From the NCBI RefSeq assembly GCF_025399795.1, contig NZ_JAODTZ010000006.1:186001-250000 (forward strand): 64,000 nt of DNA, in the 5' to 3' direction. Shown here piece by piece: positions 41,727 to 62,935 of the stretch (within the stretch, counting starts at the first letter, position 1; each line of letters begins with the position of its first letter). Under the pieces are notes generated by a model. The model saw nothing but the letters and a program-made list of their open reading frames with translations. It was not told where the DNA came from and did not search any database. The stretch is from Streptomyces rhizosphaerihabitans. GTDB lineage: Bacteria > Actinomycetota > Actinomycetes > Streptomycetales > Streptomycetaceae. Position numbers and translations under genes: made by a program.

Positions 41727-44700
41727 TCAGGCCTTGCGAGCCCGCGTGGTCTTCTTCACGGGGGTCGCCTTCGTGGCGGTCTTCTTCGCCACGGCCGCCT
41801 TCTTGGTGGCCGTGCTGTTGACGGTCTTCGTGGTCGTCTTCTTCGCCGTCGTCCCGGCCGCGACCGTCTTCTTGGCCGCGGTCCTGCGAGGGGCCTTCAC
41901 GGGAACGGCGTCGCTGATCCGGTCGGCGCCGAGGATCTCCCGCAGGAACTTGCCGGTGTGGCTGGCGGGGACACCGGCGACCTCTTCGGGCGTGCCCTCG
42001 GCAATCACGAGACCGCCGCCGTTGCCCCCCTCGGGGCCCATGTCGATGACCCAGTCCGCGGTCTTGATGACATCGAGGTTGTGCTCGATGACGATGACCG
42101 TGTTGCCCTTGTCGACCAGACCGGACAGCACCGTGATGAGCTTGCTGATGTCCTCGAAGTGCAGACCGGTGGTCGGCTCGTCGAGTACGTACACGGTGCG
42201 GCCGGTGGAGCGCTTCTGGAGCTCGCTGGCGAGCTTGACCCGCTGCGCCTCACCGCCGGACAGCGTCGGCGCGGACTGGCCGAGCCTGACGTAGCCGAGG
42301 CCGACGTCGTTGAGCGTCCTGAGGTGGCGGGCGATCGCCGGCACCGCCTCGAAGAAGCCGAGCGCCTCCTCGATCGGCATGTCCAGGACCTCGGAGATGG
42401 ACTTGCCCTTGTAGTGGACCTCCAGGGTCTCCCGGTTGTAGCGCGCCCCGTGGCAGACCTCGCAGGGGACGTACACGTCCGGCAGGAAGTTCATCTCGAT
42501 CTTGATGGTGCCGTCGCCGGAGCAGTTCTCGCAGCGGCCGCCCTTGACGTTGAAGGAGAAGCGGCCCGGCAGATAGCCCCGCACCTTCGCCTCGGTGGTC
42601 TCGGCGAACAGCCTGCGGACATGGTCGAAGACTCCGGTGTACGTCGCCGGGTTGGAGCGGGGCGTACGGCCGATGGGCGACTGGTCGACGTGCACGACCT
42701 TGTCGACGAGGTCGTCGCCGTCCACGCGGGTGTGCCGCCCCGGTACGTTCCTCGCGCCGTTCAGCTCACGGGCCAGGTGCGTGTACAGGATGTCGTTGAC
42801 CAGCGTCGACTTGCCGGAGCCCGACACACCGGTGACGGCCGTGAGGACGCCCAGCGGGAAGGACACGTCGATGTCCTGGAGGTTGTTCTCGCGGGCGCCG
42901 TGCACCGTGAGCCTGCGGCCGGGGTCGGCGGGGCGGCGGATGTCCGGGGTCGGGATCTGCCTCTTGCGCGACAGGTACTGGCCGGTGATCGACTCGGCGT
43001 TGTCGAGGAGTTCCTTCAAGGGTCCGCTGTGCACGACCTTGCCGCCGTGCTCGCCCGCGCCGGGGCCGATGTCCACGACCCAGTCGGCGACCTTGATGGT
43101 GTCCTCGTCGTGCTCGACGACGATGAGCGTGTTGCCCATGTCACGGAGTCGGACCAGGGTCTCGATCAGCCGGTGGTTGTCACGCTGGTGCAGCCCGATG
43201 GAGGGCTCGTCGAGGACGTACAGGACGCCGACGAGTCCGGAGCCGATCTGCGTGGCCAGGCGGATGCGCTGGGCCTCGCCGCCGGACAGGGTGCCGGCCG
43301 CGCGGTTCAGCGACAGGTAGTCGAGGCCGACGTCGACCAGGAAGCGCAGGCGTTCGTTGACCTCCTTCAGGACGCGCTCGGCGATCTTCTTGTCGCGCGC
43401 GTTGAGCTTCATCGCCCCCAGGAAGTCCGCGCAGTCGCTGATGGACATGGCGGCGACCTCGGCGATCGACTTCTCCATGACGGTGACCGCGAGGACGAGC
43501 GGCTTGAGGCGCGTGCCCTGACAGGTGGGGCAGGGCACCTCGCGCATGTAGCCCTCGAAGCGCTCACGGCTGGCGTCGCTCTCGGACTCGCCGTGCCGCC
43601 TCTTGACGAAGGGGACGGCTCCTTCGAAGGGCGTGGTGTACACGCGCTCGCGTCCGTACCGGTTGCGGTAGCGGACCTCGATCTGCGTCTTGTGGCCGTA
43701 GAGCAGGGCCTTCTTGGCGCGCTGCGGCAGACCGGCGAAGGGGATGTCGGTCCGGAAGCCCAACGCGTCCGCGAGGGCGCTGATCAGCCGGCCGAAGTAG
43801 TCCTTGGTGTGCCCGTGCGACCACGCGTGGATGGCGCCCTCGTCGAGGGACTTCTCCTCGTCCGGGACGATCAGCTCGGGGTCGACCTCCATGCGCGTGC
43901 CGATACCGGTGCACTCGGGGCAGGCGCCGAAGGGCGAGTTGAAGGAGAAGGAGCGGGGCTCCAGCTCCTCGAAGGAGAGGTCGTCGTACGGGCAGTACAG
44001 GTGCTCCGAGTACATGCGCTCGCGCTCGGGGTCGTCCTCGGGGAGGTCGACGAAGTCGAGCACGACCATGCCGCCGGAGAGGCCGAGGGCGGTCTCCACG
44101 GAGTCGGTGAGGCGGCGCTTGGCGGAGTCCTTCACCGTGAGGCGGTCGATGACCACCTCGATGGTGTGCTTCTCCTGCTTCTTCAGCGTCGGCGGCTCGG
44201 TGAGCTGGATCGTCTCGCCGTCGACCCGGGCACGGCTGTACCCCTTGGTCTGGAGATCGGCGAAGAGGTCGACGAACTCACCCTTGCGCTCGCGCACCAG
44301 CGGCGACAGGACCTGGAAGCGGCTCCCCTCCGACAGCTCCAGGACCTTGTCGACGATGGCCTGCGGCGACTGTCGGGAGATGGGCCGGCGGCACTCGGGA
44401 CAGTGCGGCTTGCCGATGCGCGCGAAGAGCAGCCGGAGGTAGTCGTATACCTCGGTGATGGTGCCGACCGTCGAGCGCGGGTTGCGCGAGGTCGACTTCT
44501 GGTCGATGGACACGGCCGGGGAGAGACCTTCGATGAAGTCCACGTCCGGCTTGTCCATCTGGCCGAGGAACTGCCGGGCGTACGAGGACAGGGACTCCAC
44601 GTAGCGCCGCTGGCCCTCGGCGAAGATCGTGTCGAAGGCGAGGGAGGACTTGCCCGACCCCGACAGGCCCGTGAAGACGATGAGCGAGTCGCGCGGGAGG

Positions 44701-44762
44701 TCGAGCGAGACATTCTTCAGGTTGTGCTCGCGCGCTCCACGGACGATGAGACGGTCGGCCAC
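41727..44762 (-). CDS. uvrA: Excinuclease ABC subunit A
   Basis: A 1011-residue UvrA, the damage-recognition ATPase of nucleotide-excision repair. It has two ABC modules: Walker [15 protein letters not shown] near residue 30 and [15 protein letters not shown] near 645, signatures [12 protein letters not shown] near 495 and [12 protein letters not shown] near 840, and Walker [13 protein letters not shown] and [12 protein letters not shown]. The zinc fingers are CPEC near residue 115, CPECTG near 283 and [14 protein letters not shown] near 745-770. The last 60 residues are a Lys/Ala/Thr-rich tail ([18 protein letters not shown]), like a histone H1 tail. GTG at 44762 is chosen because AAGG lies 12 bases upstream; GTG at 44774 is an alternative without a ribosome site. 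The leader has a hairpin (44795-44809) and a damage-type promoter at 44819-44841. Confidence 0.96.
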
Positions 44763-44818: not shown

Positions 44819-44841
44819 AGACTAGGGGGAGCCACTGACAG
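44819..44841 (-). promoter_or_regulatory. RecA-NDp-type (PafBC) promoter of uvrA
   Basis: On the minus strand CTGTCAGTG (44833-44841), 8 bases, TAGTCT (44819-44824). It matches the RecA-independent DNA-damage consensus TTGTCRGTG-N8-TAnnnT at all but the first base. It leaves a 56-base leader with a small hairpin before uvrA. Confidence 0.7.
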
Positions 44842-57369: not shown

Positions 57370-57948
57370 CTACAGGTGCGGCAGGATCGCGGGCATCAGG
57401 TCCTGGAACGTGCGGCCGTTGGCCGGAGTGCCGAGGGCCGTCATCTGCCAGCCGGTTCCGGAGCGGTGCACCTTCGCCATGATCTGGGCCGTGTACTGGC
57501 CGCCGCCGGCCAGCGTGTAGCGGGCGAGTTCCTGGCCGTTGGTCTCGTCGACCAGACGGCAGAACGCGTTCTGCACTTCCTGGAAGGTCTGGCCCGTGAA
57601 GGAGTTCACGGTGAAGACGATCTGGTCGATGTGGACCGGGATGCGCTGCAGGTCGACGAGGATGGCCTCGTCGTCGCCGCCTTGGCCCACGCCGCCGACG
57701 AGGTTGTCACCGGTGTGCCGCACCGAGCCGTCGTCGCTGACGAGGTGACGGAAGAACACCACGTCGACGGGCTGCTTGTCGGCGAACAGCACGGCGGAGG
57801 CGTCGAGGTCGATCTCCCGGGTGCGCGAGCCGAACAGGCCGCGCCGGGGGGCCGCCTGCCAGCCGAGTCCCATACGGACCGCGGTCAGCGTGCCTCCGTC
57901 GTTCTTCTGCAGACTGATGGCCTGGCCCTTGGTCATGTTGACCGTCAC
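57370..57948 (-). CDS. terD: TerD family stress protein
   Basis: A 192-residue TerD protein of the tellurite-resistance/general-stress family, cytoplasmic and thought to bind calcium. It contains MTKGQAISLQKNDGGTLTAVRMGLGW near residue 5, REIDLDASAVLFADKQPVDVVFF near 45, GSVRHTGDNLVGGVGQGGDDEAILVDLQRIPVHIDQIVFTVNSFTGQTF near 72-120 (the GDN and GGDDE metal positions), and NGQELARYTL near 137. GTG at 57948 has AGGGGA 8 bases upstream; ATG 57936 (MTKG) is the alternative and gives the more common N terminus. A RecA-NDp-type promoter lies 57 bases upstream of the start (58005-58027), so induction by DNA damage is predicted. The larger TerD-domain gene follows. Confidence 0.93.
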   Translation of the reverse strand: MTVNMTKGQAISLQKNDGGTLTAVRMGLGWQAAPRRGLFGSRTREIDLDASAVLFADKQPVDVVFFRHLVSDDGSVRHTGDNLVGGVGQGGDDEAILVDLQRIPVHIDQIVFTVNSFTGQTFQEVQNAFCRLVDETNGQELARYTLAGGGQYTAQIMAKVHRSGTGWQMTALGTPANGRTFQDLMPAILPHL

Positions 57949-58004: not shown

Positions 58005-58027
58005 ACCCTACGCAGCGGCACTGACAG
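58005..58027 (-). promoter_or_regulatory. RecA-NDp-type (PafBC) promoter of the terD operon
   Basis: On the minus strand CTGTCAGTG (58019-58027), 8 bases, TAGGGT (58005-58010). It differs from TTGTCRGTG-N8-TAnnnT only at the first base, exactly as the uvrA copy does. Confidence 0.65.
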
Positions 58028-58109: not shown

Positions 58110-60242
58110 TCAGGCGATTCCCGCCTCCTTCATCTGCCGCAGCTCCTTCTTCATCTCGGACACCTCGTCGCGCAGCCGGGCCGCGATCTCGAACTGGAGG
58201 TCGGCCGCCGCGGCGCGCATCCGTTCCGTCATCTCCTCGATCTGCTGGGCGAGTTCGGCAGCGGGACGATCGGTCGGGACGGCGTCCTTGCCCTTGGCGG
58301 ACTTGGCGGCCCGGGTCGCCTTGCCGCCCAGCGCGGGGACGGGGGCCTTGGCGCCCTTGCCGTCCTTCGTCTTGCGGTAGCCGGAGCCGAGCAGTTGCTC
58401 GGTGTCGACGTCCTCGCGGGCGATCTGCGCCACGATGTCGTTGATCTTCTTGCGGAGGGGCTGCGGGTCGATGCCCCTCTCCTTGTTGTAGGCGATCTGC
58501 TTCTCCCGGCGCCGGTTGGTCTCCTCGATGGCCTTCTCCATCGCCGGGGTGATCTTGTCGGCGTACATGTGGACCTGGCCGGAGACATTGCGCGCCGCGC
58601 GGCCGATGGTCTGGATCAGGGACGTTCCCGAGCGCAGGAAGCCTTCCTTGTCGGCGTCGAGGATCGCCACCAGGGAGACCTCGGGAAGGTCGAGGCCCTC
58701 GCGCAGCAGGTTGATGCCCACCAGGACGTCGAACTCGCCGGCGCGCAGTTCGCGCAGCAGCTCCACGCGGCGCAGGGTGTCGACGTCGCTGTGCAGGTAG
58801 CGGACCTGGATGCCAAGTTCGAGGAAGTAGTCGGTGAGGTCCTCGGCCATCTTCTTGGTGAGCGTGGTGACCAGGACGCGCTCGTCCTTCTCGGTGCGCT
58901 GCCGGATCTCGTGCACCAGGTCGTCGATCTGGCCCTCGGTGGACTTGACGACGACCTGCGGGTCGATGAGGCCGGTAGGACGGATGATCTGCTCGACAAA
59001 GCCGTCCGAGCGGGAAAGCTCGTACTTCCCCGGGGTCGCCGAGAGATAGACGGTCTGGTCGATGCGCTTCTGGAACTCCTCCCATTTCAGGGGGCGGTTG
59101 TCCAGGGCTGAGGGCAGCCGGAAGCCGTGGTCGACAAGGGTGCGCTTGCGGGAGGCGTCACCCTCGTACATGGCGCCGATCTGCGGAACGGTGACGTGCG
59201 ACTCGTCGATGACGAGCAGGAAGTCGTCCGGGAAGTAGTCGATCAGCGTGTTCGGCGGGGAACCGGGTTCACGGCCGTCGAAGTGCATCGAGTAGTTCTC
59301 GACACCGGAGCAGGAGCCGATCTGGCGGAGCATCTCGATGTCGTACGTCGTCCGCATGCGCAGCCGCTGGGCCTCCAGGAGCTTGCTCTGCTTCTCCAGC
59401 TCGGCGAGGCGTTCCCCCAGTTCCTTCTCGATGTCGTTGACGGCGCGCTCCATGCGTTCGGGACCCGCCACGTAGTGGGACGCCGGGAAGACGTAGATCT
59501 GGTTGTCGTCGCTGATGACCTCACCGGTCAGCGGGTGCAGCGTGGACAGGGCCTCGATCTCGTCGCCGAACATCTCGATGCGGACGGCGAGCTCCTCGTA
59601 GACCGGGAAGATCTCGATGGTGTCGCCCCGGACCCGGAAGGTGCCGCGCGCGAAGGCCACGTCGTTGCGCGTGTACTGGATGTCGACGAAGCGGCGCAGC
59701 AGGTCGTCGCGGTCGATCTCGTCGCCGACCTTGAGGCTGACCATCCGGTCCACGTACTCCTGCGGAGTGCCGAGGCCGTAGATGCAGGAGACCGAGGCGA
59801 CCACGACGACGTCACGGCGGGTCAGCAGCGAGTTGGTCGCGGAGTGGCGCAGGCGCTCCACCTCCTCGTTGATCGAGGAGTCCTTCTCGATGTAGGTGTC
59901 CGACTGCGGGACGTAGGCCTCGGGCTGGTAGTAGTCGTAGTACGAGACGAAGTACTCGACCGCGTTGTTCGGCAGCAGCTCTCGGAACTCGTTGGCCAGC
60001 TGGGCGGCCAGCGTCTTGTTCGGTGCCATGACGAGCGTGGGGCGCTGGAGCTTCTCGATCATCCACGCGGTGGTCGCGGACTTGCCGGTGCCGGTCGCAC
60101 CCAGCAGGACGACATCCTTCTCACCTGCCCGGATGCGCTTCTCCAGGTCGGCGATGGCCGTGGGCTGGTCACCGCCCGGCTGGAAGGAGCTGACGACCTC
60201 GAAGGGCGCCACCGAACGTTCGATCTTGGATACGGGCCGCAT
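58110..60242 (-). CDS. uvrB: Excinuclease ABC subunit B
   Basis: A 710-residue UvrB, the damage-verifying helicase-like subunit of nucleotide-excision repair. It shows [14 protein letters not shown], Walker [24 protein letters not shown] near residue 40, the DNA-binding beta-hairpin [21 protein letters not shown] near 95, [21 protein letters not shown] near 335 (Walker B DESH), [17 protein letters not shown] near 510 and [19 protein letters not shown] near 540. After this is a Lys/Gly-rich actinobacterial linker ([20 protein letters not shown]), then the C-terminal UVR motif [29 protein letters not shown] that binds UvrC. ATG 60242 lies 7 bases from the TACGGT -10 box at 60250-60255, so the mRNA is predicted to be leaderless. 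Confidence 0.97.
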
Positions 60243-60249
60243 GGAATCC

Positions 60250-60272
60250 ACCGTACGACCCCGCACTGACAA
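60250..60272 (-). promoter_or_regulatory. RecA-NDp-type (PafBC) promoter of uvrB
   Basis: On the minus strand TTGTCAGTG (60264-60272), 8 bases, TACGGT (60250-60255), then 7 bases to the ATG. It is a full match to TTGTCRGTG-N8-TAnnnT and nearly identical in sequence to the ogt promoter at 62351-62373. Confidence 0.85.
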
Positions 60273-60282
60273 CCGGGCCCGA

Positions 60283-61155
60283 TCACCTGCTCTGCGGAGC
60301 GCGGGAGCGGCGGTACGCGCGCTCCGGCACTCGGCGGACGGCCGGGCGACGGCCGACGTGCACGGCGACGGGATGGGCCGGGATGCCCGGTCGCCTGATC
60401 TCCGCGGGACGCCGTTCGGGCCGGCCCATGACCATCTGCGGATCGAACATCATGACGACGCCCGCCAGACACAGGAAGGCCAGGGGGCCGATCATCATGG
60501 GCGCGAGCAGCGCCGCCGCCGAGTCCCCGGCAGGGGCCGCGCCGGTCGAACCGTGCAGATGGACGCTGAGCGCGGCCATGCCCGTGTAGTGCATACCGCT
60601 GACGGCCAGCCCCATGACGAGGCTCGCACCCACGCTCCAGAGGAATCCACGCACCTGTCCCGCGGCCCAGAGGGCGGCGGTGGCGGCCACGACGGCTATG
60701 ACGACCGAGGCCGAGACCGTGAGGGTGTTGTACGCGAGCTTCCCGTTGAGCCGCATCCCGGCCATGCCCAGGTAGTGCATCGAGGCGATGCCCAGGCCGG
60801 TGACGGTCCCTCCGGTGAAGAGCGCCGTCCCGGTGGCGCCCTGATAGCCGACGATGAAGATCCCGGCGCCGACCATCAGGACGGCGACGCCCAGACTCGC
60901 GAACGTCGTCGGCTTGTCGTAGTGGACGGGGGTCTGCTCGACCGTGAATCCCATCATCGCGATGAAGTGCATCGTCCATATGCCGGACGCGATCGCGAAC
61001 GAGCCGAGGGCGAGCCACCCGGCGCGCCAGGAACCGGCGACGAGCAGGGATCTGGTGGTGCAGCGAAGCCCCAGCGCTCCGCCCAGACAGGCCATGAAAT
61101 ACGCCACCAGCGGTGTGACGAGTCCATAGGTGAAGCCGTCGACCGTGCCCTGCAT
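60283..61155 (-). CDS. MHYT-domain membrane protein
   Basis: A 290-residue membrane protein with seven predicted helices forming an MHYT sensory unit, a domain proposed to bind copper and sense O2, CO or NO. All three MHYT-type motifs are visible: MHFIAMMGF near residue 63, MHYLGMAGM near 128 and MHYTGMAAL near 190. The start [32 protein letters not shown] leads into helix one. The cytoplasmic tail ([39 protein letters not shown]) is basic and has no GGDEF or kinase domain, so any output partner is separate. ATG 61155 has AAAGG about 10 bases upstream. It ends 11 bases before the uvrB promoter element. Confidence 0.9.
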
Positions 61156-61376
61156 ACGCGGCTGCCTTTCCCGCCCTGTTACTCCTGGAACTGCCCGGAA
61201 CACCCCCGCCCTCCGGACCGCCGGAGCGGACCGGGTTGAGGCGAGAGTATGACCCCCACCGGAATGGTCGAACGATAATCCGGCAAAGAATCACGACCTC
61301 TCCTCACTTGTACGGCGCCAGTGACCGGACTTGGACAACTCCATTCAATCCGCGGCCATCTCGCCCCACCCCTCCG

Positions 61377-61405
61377 TCGACTCTCTGCTGTCAGTCTTGT
61401 ACTGT
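61377..61405 (+). promoter_or_regulatory. Promoter of the glycerophosphodiesterase gene
   Basis: TCGACT (61377-61382), 17 bases, TACTGT (61400-61405), 28 bases before the ATG with GAGGAG between. Good housekeeping-type spacing. Nearby TGTCAGTC (61390-61397) resembles the damage motif but its spacing to TACTGT is wrong. Confidence 0.5.
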
Positions 61406-61433
61406 CCGTGATCGTCCGACGCGAGGAGAACGC

Positions 61434-62300
61434 ATGCACGCGCGCGTTGCCGCCGCCACGACCGCCGCGCTTCTTGGGGGAGCCGTTTTGATACTGCCCA
61501 GCCCGCACGCCAAGGCCGGCGGCCGGATCACGGCACCGCTGGTCGTCGCCCACCGCGGCGCCTCGGCCTATGTGCCCGAGAACACTCTGGACGCCATCGA
61601 CCGCGCGGCCGAGCTGGGGTTCGACTGGGTCGAGAACGACGTCCAGCGCACCAGCGACGGTCAGCTGGTCGTCCTGCACGACGCATCGCTGGCGCGCACG
61701 ACCGACGTCGAGGAGGTCTATCCCGGGCGAAGCCCCTGGAAGGTCAAGGACTTCACCGCGGCCGAGATCGCCCGCCTGGATGCCGGTAGCTGGTTCGACC
61801 CCCGGTTCGCGGGCGCGAAGGTGCCGACGCTGCGGGAGTACATGGAAGGCGTCTCGCGCAACCACCAGAAGCTCGTCCTGGAGATCAAGAACCCGGAGCT
61901 CTATCCGGGCATCGAGCGACAGACGCTCAGGCTCCTGAGCAACGAGGGCTGGCTCGACCCGGTGCACCTCAGGGACAGGCTGATCGTCCAGAGCTTCAGT
62001 GCGGACAGTGTCCGGACGGTGCACCAGCTGCGGCCCGGCATCACGACGGCCTTCCTGGGGACGCCTCCGGTCGCGCGGCTGCCCCAGTACGCGGAGTTCG
62101 CCGACCAGATCAACTCCGATCACCGGTCGCTGTCGTCCGACTACGTCTCCGCGGTCCACGCGCTCCATGGTCCGCACGGCCCGATGAAGGTCTTCGCCTG
62201 GACCGTGGACGAAGCGGCCACCGCGCGGCGTCTGGCGGGCTTCGGCACGGACGGCGTCATCACGAACGTGCCCGACGCGATCCGCGAGGCTCTGCGCTAG
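61434..62300 (+). CDS. Secreted glycerophosphodiester phosphodiesterase
   Basis: A 288-residue GDPD/GlpQ-type phosphodiesterase that frees glycerol-3-phosphate from glycerophosphodiesters outside the cell. The signal peptide MHARVAAATTAALLGGAVLILPSPHAKA has an AKA cleavage site. The TIM-barrel motifs are VVAHRGASAYVPENTLDAI (catalytic His and Glu/Asn) near residue 40, WVENDVQRTSDGQLVVLHDASLARTTD (metal Glu/Asp and second His) near 65-90, LVLEIKNPELYPG near 145, and FAWTVDEAATARRLAGFGTDGVITNVPD near 252-280. ATG 61434 follows GCGAGGAG, and a good promoter lies at 61377-61405. Phosphate control would be expected for this family, but no PHO box was recognised. Confidence 0.94.
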   Translation: MHARVAAATTAALLGGAVLILPSPHAKAGGRITAPLVVAHRGASAYVPENTLDAIDRAAELGFDWVENDVQRTSDGQLVVLHDASLARTTDVEEVYPGRSPWKVKDFTAAEIARLDAGSWFDPRFAGAKVPTLREYMEGVSRNHQKLVLEIKNPELYPGIERQTLRLLSNEGWLDPVHLRDRLIVQSFSADSVRTVHQLRPGITTAFLGTPPVARLPQYAEFADQINSDHRSLSSDYVSAVHALHGPHGPMKVFAWTVDEAATARRLAGFGTDGVITNVPDAIREALR

Positions 62301-62350
62301 CGCGCCATCGCCCGGGGTGCGGACGGGTGCCGGCGTGGGTGCCCCGGGCG

Positions 62351-62373
62351 TTGTCAGTGGCGGGCCGTACGGT
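62351..62373 (+). promoter_or_regulatory. RecA-NDp-type (PafBC) promoter of ogt
   Basis: TTGTCAGTG (62351-62359), 8 bases, TACGGT (62368-62373), 7 bases, ATG at 62381. Full match to TTGTCRGTG-N8-TAnnnT, with leaderless geometry like uvrB. Confidence 0.85.
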
Positions 62374-62380
62374 GGATCGC

Positions 62381-62935
62381 ATGAACAGCCACGGGCGGTA
62401 CGAGCAGCAGGTCGTGTGGTCCGTCGTCGGCACGGACATCGGTCCGCTGCTCCTCGCGGCGACGTCCCACGGCCTGGTCAATGTCGTCTTTCACGCGTCG
62501 GACGCGGTGCGCGACAAGGCGCTCGACCGGCTCGCGTCCCGTCTGGGCAGCGAGCTCGTCGAGGCCCCGGAGTCCCCGCTGCTGGCCGAGGCGATACGCC
62601 AGGTCGAGGCGTACTTCGCGGGCGAGCGGCAGGATTTCGACCTGCCGCTCGACTGGTCGCTGATCTCGGGGTTCAACCGCCAGGTGCTGCGCGAGTTGAA
62701 CTCGGGCGTTCCGTTCGGTTCCGTCGTGGCCTACGGCGACCTGGCCGGGCGGGTCGGTGAGCCCCGGGCGGCGCAGGCCGTGGGGGTGGCCATGGGCTCG
62801 AATCCGCTGCCGGTCGTGGTGCCCTGCCACCGGGTGGTCGAGAGCGACGGAGGGATCGGTGGTTTCGGGGGCGGCCTGGAGACCAAGCGGAAGCTGCTGG
62901 CGCTCGAAGGAGTCCTCCCGGAACCGCTGTTCTGA
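62381..62935 (+). CDS. ogt: Methylated-DNA--protein-cysteine methyltransferase
   Basis: A 184-residue O6-alkylguanine DNA alkyltransferase that removes alkyl groups from guanine onto its own cysteine in one suicidal step. The active-site motif VVVPCHRVVESDGGIGGFGGGLETKRKLLALEG lies near residues 145-177, with PCHR as acceptor. The DNA-binding helix region is SGFNRQVLRELNSGVPFGSVVAYGDLAGRVGEPRAAQAVGVAMGSNPLP, where the Arg finger in RAAQAVG is clear. It has no Ada-type N-terminal regulatory domain. ATG 62381 is chosen from family alignment and the leaderless promoter; reading further upstream in frame would run through the promoter. Confidence 0.95.
   Translation: MNSHGRYEQQVVWSVVGTDIGPLLLAATSHGLVNVVFHASDAVRDKALDRLASRLGSELVEAPESPLLAEAIRQVEAYFAGERQDFDLPLDWSLISGFNRQVLRELNSGVPFGSVVAYGDLAGRVGEPRAAQAVGVAMGSNPLPVVVPCHRVVESDGGIGGFGGGLETKRKLLALEGVLPEPLF

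Follow-up and report, generated by a model that had tools for sequence, protein, structure and literature searches.

Probable RecA-NDp promoters with leaderless geometry at uvrB and ogt of Streptomyces rhizosphaerihabitans

The window, which is the whole 64,000-nucleotide stretch of Streptomyces rhizosphaerihabitans DNA that was analysed, carries uvrB reading leftward and ogt reading rightward, with an MHYT and a GDPD gene between them. A TerD-domain gene lies directly downstream of uvrB, and uvrA is found on the same strand (Table 1). Family models agree with the initial annotation on the identities of UvrB and Ogt. Upstream of both genes lies a site that matches the RecA-NDp promoter consensus, TTGTCRGTG-N8-TAnnnT. 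On the minus strand, from 60272 to 60250, the uvrB site reads TTGTCAGTG-CGGGGTCG-TACGGT and is followed by GGATTCC and the ATG at 60242. The ogt site reads TTGTCAGTG-GCGGGCCG-TACGGT on the plus strand (62351-62373) and is followed by GGATCGC and the ATG at 62381. The initial annotation had given this sequence, TTGTCAGTG-N8-TACGGT-N7-ATG, and its coordinates correctly for both genes, and had called both sites full matches to the consensus. The scan bears this out, as these two are the only zero-mismatch matches in the window. When up to two mismatches are allowed, the window holds six matches where 1.44 would be expected; as many were never obtained in 100 shuffles. The genes had been described as convergently placed 2.1 kb apart; the distance is right, but the genes diverge. 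A single bidirectional promoter for uvrB and ogt was ruled out because the sites are divergent and 2.1 kb apart, and for the same reason the likeness of the two sites does not come from one shared promoter, as had been stated.

Table 1. Genes and RecA-NDp sites in the window, with positions counted from its first nucleotide.
Feature	Coordinates	Strand	Description
uvrA, excinuclease ABC subunit A	41727..44762	-	NF001503, 1578 bits; GTG start, AGAAAGG Shine-Dalgarno-like sequence before GTG
uvrA RecA-NDp site	44819..44841	-	CTGTCAGTG-N8-TAGTCT; one mismatch, at weak first position; PWM 20.7 bits; leadered
TerD-domain gene	57370..57948	-	PF02342, 138.7 bits; start GTG 57948 or ATG 57936
TerD-domain gene RecA-NDp site	58005..58027	-	CTGTCAGTG-N8-TAGGGT; PWM 18.0 bits; leadered
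uvrB, excinuclease ABC subunit B, 710 aa	58110..60242	-	NF003673, 1082 bits; predicted leaderless
uvrB RecA-NDp promoter	60250..60272	-	TTGTCAGTG-N8-TACGGT; 7 nt to ATG; zero mismatches; PWM 27.5 bits
ogt RecA-NDp promoter	62351..62373	+	TTGTCAGTG-N8-TACGGT; 7 nt to ATG; zero mismatches; PWM 32.7 bits
ogt, O6-methylguanine-DNA methyltransferase, 184 aa	62381..62935	+	TIGR00589, PF01035; predicted leaderless

Two further sites, each with one mismatch and overlooked in the initial annotation, precede uvrA and the TerD-domain gene. They deviate from the consensus at the first base alone, which is a C here and is the weak position of the motif. A scan of the window with a position-weight matrix (PWM) had been proposed as a check. 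We trained the matrix on the other 33 genomic sites and used 20 Markov-simulated windows as background. The highest score in the simulated windows was 15.4 bits, and all four sites (ogt, uvrB, uvrA, and TerD) score above it. In the Streptomyces genome G013, a counterpart of the uvrA site has the exact sequence TTGTCAGTGGCTCCCCCTAGTCT and is separated from the uvrB site by about 17 kb. The TerD site is also kept at the uvrB locus of S. tendae (L076), again on the downstream side of the gene. Leaderless placement is not universal in the regulon, since uvrA and the TerD-domain gene have leaders.

The uvrB and ogt sites are part of a larger regulon and not a two-gene curiosity. The exact consensus, to which the genome-wide and genus-wide counts are confined, is present in 35 copies in the 10.2-Mb genome, and its reversed pattern in none. 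Across 101 Streptomyces genomes there are 2,523 exact motifs against 9 of the reversed pattern, with 9-44 per genome and all 101 genomes positive. Together with the simulated windows, these controls rule out an artefact of chance or composition. The genes behind the other genomic sites are mostly DNA repair genes. Directly behind sites lie recA, xseA, dnaX, ung, thyX, rpsF, and the genes for a RarA-like ATPase, a DinG/YoaA-type helicase, an AlkZ-like glycosylase, an EmrB-type efflux pump, and a pPIWI-RE nuclease. The site of this last, pPIWI_RE_REase-domain (defence) gene is an exact one with a GTG at 7 nt (L022, G000:C41:22586-22608).

We rejected the view that all 35 exact matches are promoters, as about two to three fall in coding sequence. 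One (L002, G000:C2:54642-54664) lies inside a frame whose translation reads as a threonine-dehydratase-like C-terminus. Another (L029) lies inside an opposite-strand frame and is a coding coincidence, so that a small proportion of the counted sites are false positives. The regulon in this genome would thus comprise roughly 30 sites, including those of uvrA and recA. The L002 motif recurs nearly identically in many Streptomyces as a conserved false positive, and it adds a spurious GTG at 7 nt. A different kind of recurrence is seen in genome G156 (L155-L157, family f19). About eight identical copies of TTGTCGGTGCCCGCCCGTAGGGT lie there within a longer repeat that ends in CCCCCTCCCAACCGGGCGGGG and has complementary CCCGCCCG/CGGGCGGG arms. 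This is likely a repeat element, and the motif counts in family f19 are therefore inflated.

The position of the sites relative to the start codons is the second feature of interest. In S. lividans, the distance from the -10 element to the transcription start site (TSS) has a mean of 6.3 nt (PMC8079986). A start codon 6-7 nt past the -10 coincides with this distance, and a leaderless mRNA is therefore predicted. The -10 hexamers of uvrB and ogt both end 7 nt before the ATG, within the leaderless range of 5-7 nt (range from PMC8079986). Both mRNAs should begin at the start codon and are predicted to be leaderless. A site followed 6 or 7 nt later by ATG or GTG is present at 29 of 30 sampled Streptomyces ogt genes (25 exact and four with one mismatch). 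For uvrB, we counted sites that score at least 10/12 and lie 6-7 nt before the start codon. Such a site is found at 19 of 30 Actinomycetes loci (named genomes) and at none of 10 uvrB loci from other phyla or Coriobacteria. The positive genera include Planomonospora, Actinotalea, Microlunatus, Arthrobacter, Nocardioides, Curtobacterium, Nocardia, and Mycolicibacterium. UvrB of Nocardia and of Mycolicibacterium would gain an in-frame extension by starting at the leaderless ATG.

The same spacing is common throughout the genus. An ATG or GTG stands at 6-7 nt for 1,178 of the 2,523 exact sites (46.7 %, somewhat inflated by two recurrent cases, the coding L002-type site and the recA GTG), against 84 (3.3 %) at 14-15 nt. 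In S. rhizosphaerihabitans this holds for 22 of the 35 exact sites, and a histogram of ATG positions from six genomes has a sharp peak at 6 and 7 nt. Among primary TSSs, 21 % are leaderless in S. coelicolor (PMC4895711) and 17 % in S. lividans (PMC8079986). About half of the promoters are thus fixed 6-7 nt from a start codon, which is over twice the genomic leaderless rate, and each of the 101 Streptomyces genomes has more than 21 % of its sites at this distance.

Three sets of sites merit separate description. At recA (L027), an in-frame GTG lies 7 nt past the -10 and precedes the usual ATG by 12 codons; as a leaderless start it would extend RecA by 12 residues (VKRSTQANRVEP). Many Streptomyces genomes have a GTG at this same offset in their recA-like sites. 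The ogt gene of G008 (L150) and uvrB of S. oceani (L045) retain the -10 and the 7-nt spacing, and the GTG of the box is gone. These are possibly natural promoters freed from PafBC control. At three uvrB loci from Acidimicrobiales and another actinobacterial MAG (L079, L080, L086), a variant box such as CTGTCACNN-N8-TANNNT lies exactly 6 nt before an ATG. It is a possible diverged PafBC-type promoter outside the Actinomycetes.

The regulator expected to read these promoters is encoded in the genome. The gene order is pafA-fkbp-pafB-pafC-tatA-tatC, where pafA, fkbp, and the tat genes were named from their translations. PafC carries the HTH_PafC domain, and WYL and WCX domains are also found in the pafBC products. 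Alignment to 7p5x shows that PafB has the recognition helix F-x-R-M-F-E-R-D-K in common with M. smegmatis PafB. Two arginines of this helix are required for function in M. smegmatis (PMC6789036), and both are conserved in S. rhizosphaerihabitans. Deletion of pafBC in M. smegmatis lowers the uvrB transcript by 37 % (PMC5656591). The co-occurrence of PafB and the motif is weak, thin evidence for PafBC dependence. PafB was found in 108 of the 118 genomes of the class sample, and the motif is likewise missing from G128 and G176, the two near-complete genomes in which PafB was not matched. Its weight is limited, as nearly all Actinomycetes encode PafB and several genomes with PafB have no exact motif.

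Taken together, it is probable (about 0.87) that the uvrB and ogt sites are RecA-NDp, PafBC-type promoters that give leaderless mRNAs and are induced by DNA damage via PafBC. We infer the damage induction, the PafBC dependence, the LexA independence, and the exact 5' ends. By analogy with mycobacteria, DNA damage would give rise to single-stranded DNA that is bound by the WYL domains of PafB and PafC. The activated PafBC would then be positioned between the promoter and region 4 of the housekeeping sigma factor, with PafB reading the TTGTCRGTG box. The polymerase would open the DNA at TACGGT and initiate about 7 nt downstream, at the A of the ATG. The resulting leaderless uvrB and ogt mRNAs would be translated without a Shine-Dalgarno sequence.

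Another factor, such as a ClpR-like regulator or an alternative sigma factor, might read these promoters in place of PafBC. A ClpR-like protein was reported to bind the RecA-independent motif and to regulate damage genes in mycobacteria (Wang 2011, as cited in PMC5656591), and PafBC does not bind the motif in vitro when polymerase is absent (PMC11804915). The same study reports, however, that PafBC, single-stranded DNA, and sigma A of M. smegmatis assemble as a complex at a RecA-NDp promoter. With the PafB recognition helix also conserved here, we regard another reader as very unlikely. Slightly less likely still is that the sites are constitutive sigma-70 promoters that only resemble the motif, with TTGTC as a variant -35, TAnnnT as the -10, and no damage control. 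TAnnnT is indeed an ordinary Streptomyces -10, leaderless genes have TTGACn as their -35 (PMC8079986), and ogt of G008 keeps its -10 and spacing despite the lost box. A variant -35 sits poorly with the conservation of the whole 9-mer TTGTCRGTG at a fixed N8 across genera, with its excess over the reversed control, and with the repair genes that mostly follow it.

The least likely of the three is that LexA mainly controls uvrB and ogt, with the RecA-NDp sites secondary. We searched for the SOS box tCGAAC-N4-GNNCGa, which has 10 informative positions. The initial annotation had reported no LexA box at either gene. This stands for ogt, where the best match is 7/10; near uvrB, there is a 9/10 match about 200 bp upstream. 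Dual control does exist in this group, as uvrA and recA are bound by LexA in S. venezuelae; the main text of the same paper mentions neither uvrB nor ogt (PMC9380542). In our genome, recA carries both a RecA-NDp site and an SOS-box sequence equal to the one reported for S. venezuelae recA. The LexA-like sequence near uvrB, however, lies inside the neighbouring MHYT gene, about 12 % of random 400-bp stretches contain a match scoring at least 9, and the four relatives checked yielded none above 8/10. RecA-NDp promoters read by PafBC remain our preferred explanation for both genes.

These promoters closely recall the RecA-NDp promoters and the PafBC regulon of Mycobacterium, reportedly described by Gamulin in 2004 and Mueller in 2018. 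The consensus TTGTCRGTG-N8-TAnnnT, the repair-gene content, and the position of pafBC beside pafA are alike, and recA has both a RecA-NDp site and an SOS-box sequence, in line with its dual control in mycobacteria. The differences are the Streptomyces host and the short distance, 6-7 nt, that separates about half of the exact sites from the start codon that follows. Within Streptomyces, the earliest account of the promoter type concerns recA of S. rimosus (Ahel 2002, as cited in PMC2375139), and the macrodomain gene SCO6735 of S. coelicolor, which is UV-inducible, has a promoter of the same type (PMC5087735). As far as these reports are available to us, they concern single genes, without a regulon or leaderless placement. 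The SIGffRid study of 2008 predicted the same motif, written as TGTCAGT-N14/15-TnG, in S. coelicolor and S. avermitilis; in S. coelicolor it was placed before 67 genes, uvrB, ung, and dinG among them (PMC2375139). Neither the promoter class nor its association with uvrB is therefore a new finding. In the parts of that study available to us, the motif is not linked to PafBC, whose role was then unknown, and ogt and the leaderless geometry are absent. Leaderless Streptomyces transcripts likewise have a TAnnnT -10 about 6 nt before the start codon (PMC4895711, PMC8079986). In contrast, they form a general class that accounts for 17-21 % of primary TSSs, and their -35 is TTGACn and not TTGTCRGTG. 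In the literature searched, which leaves most subscription papers outside, we found no report that connects leaderless transcripts with PafBC or actinobacterial DNA repair. The link of RecA-NDp promoters to leaderless starts thus appears unreported in that literature.

Stratton et al. (2022) found in an initial search that the M. smegmatis PafBC motif was seemingly not conserved in S. venezuelae, and a RecA/LexA-independent damage response in Streptomyces remained to be shown (PMC9380542). From the sequence counts, we argue that a PafBC-type motif is probably general in the genus; for S. venezuelae itself, its predicted presence rests on this genus-wide result. The exact motif at repair genes in all 101 sampled Streptomyces and the conserved pafBC make the question testable with one mutant and a few promoters, and show where to look for a RecA-independent damage response in Streptomyces. 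The leaderless bias adds a translational side to the damage response. Leaderless initiation may, as a tentative proposal, be a selected and ancestral trait of the actinobacterial PafBC regulon, possibly one that allows repair proteins to be translated independently of Shine-Dalgarno sequences under stress.
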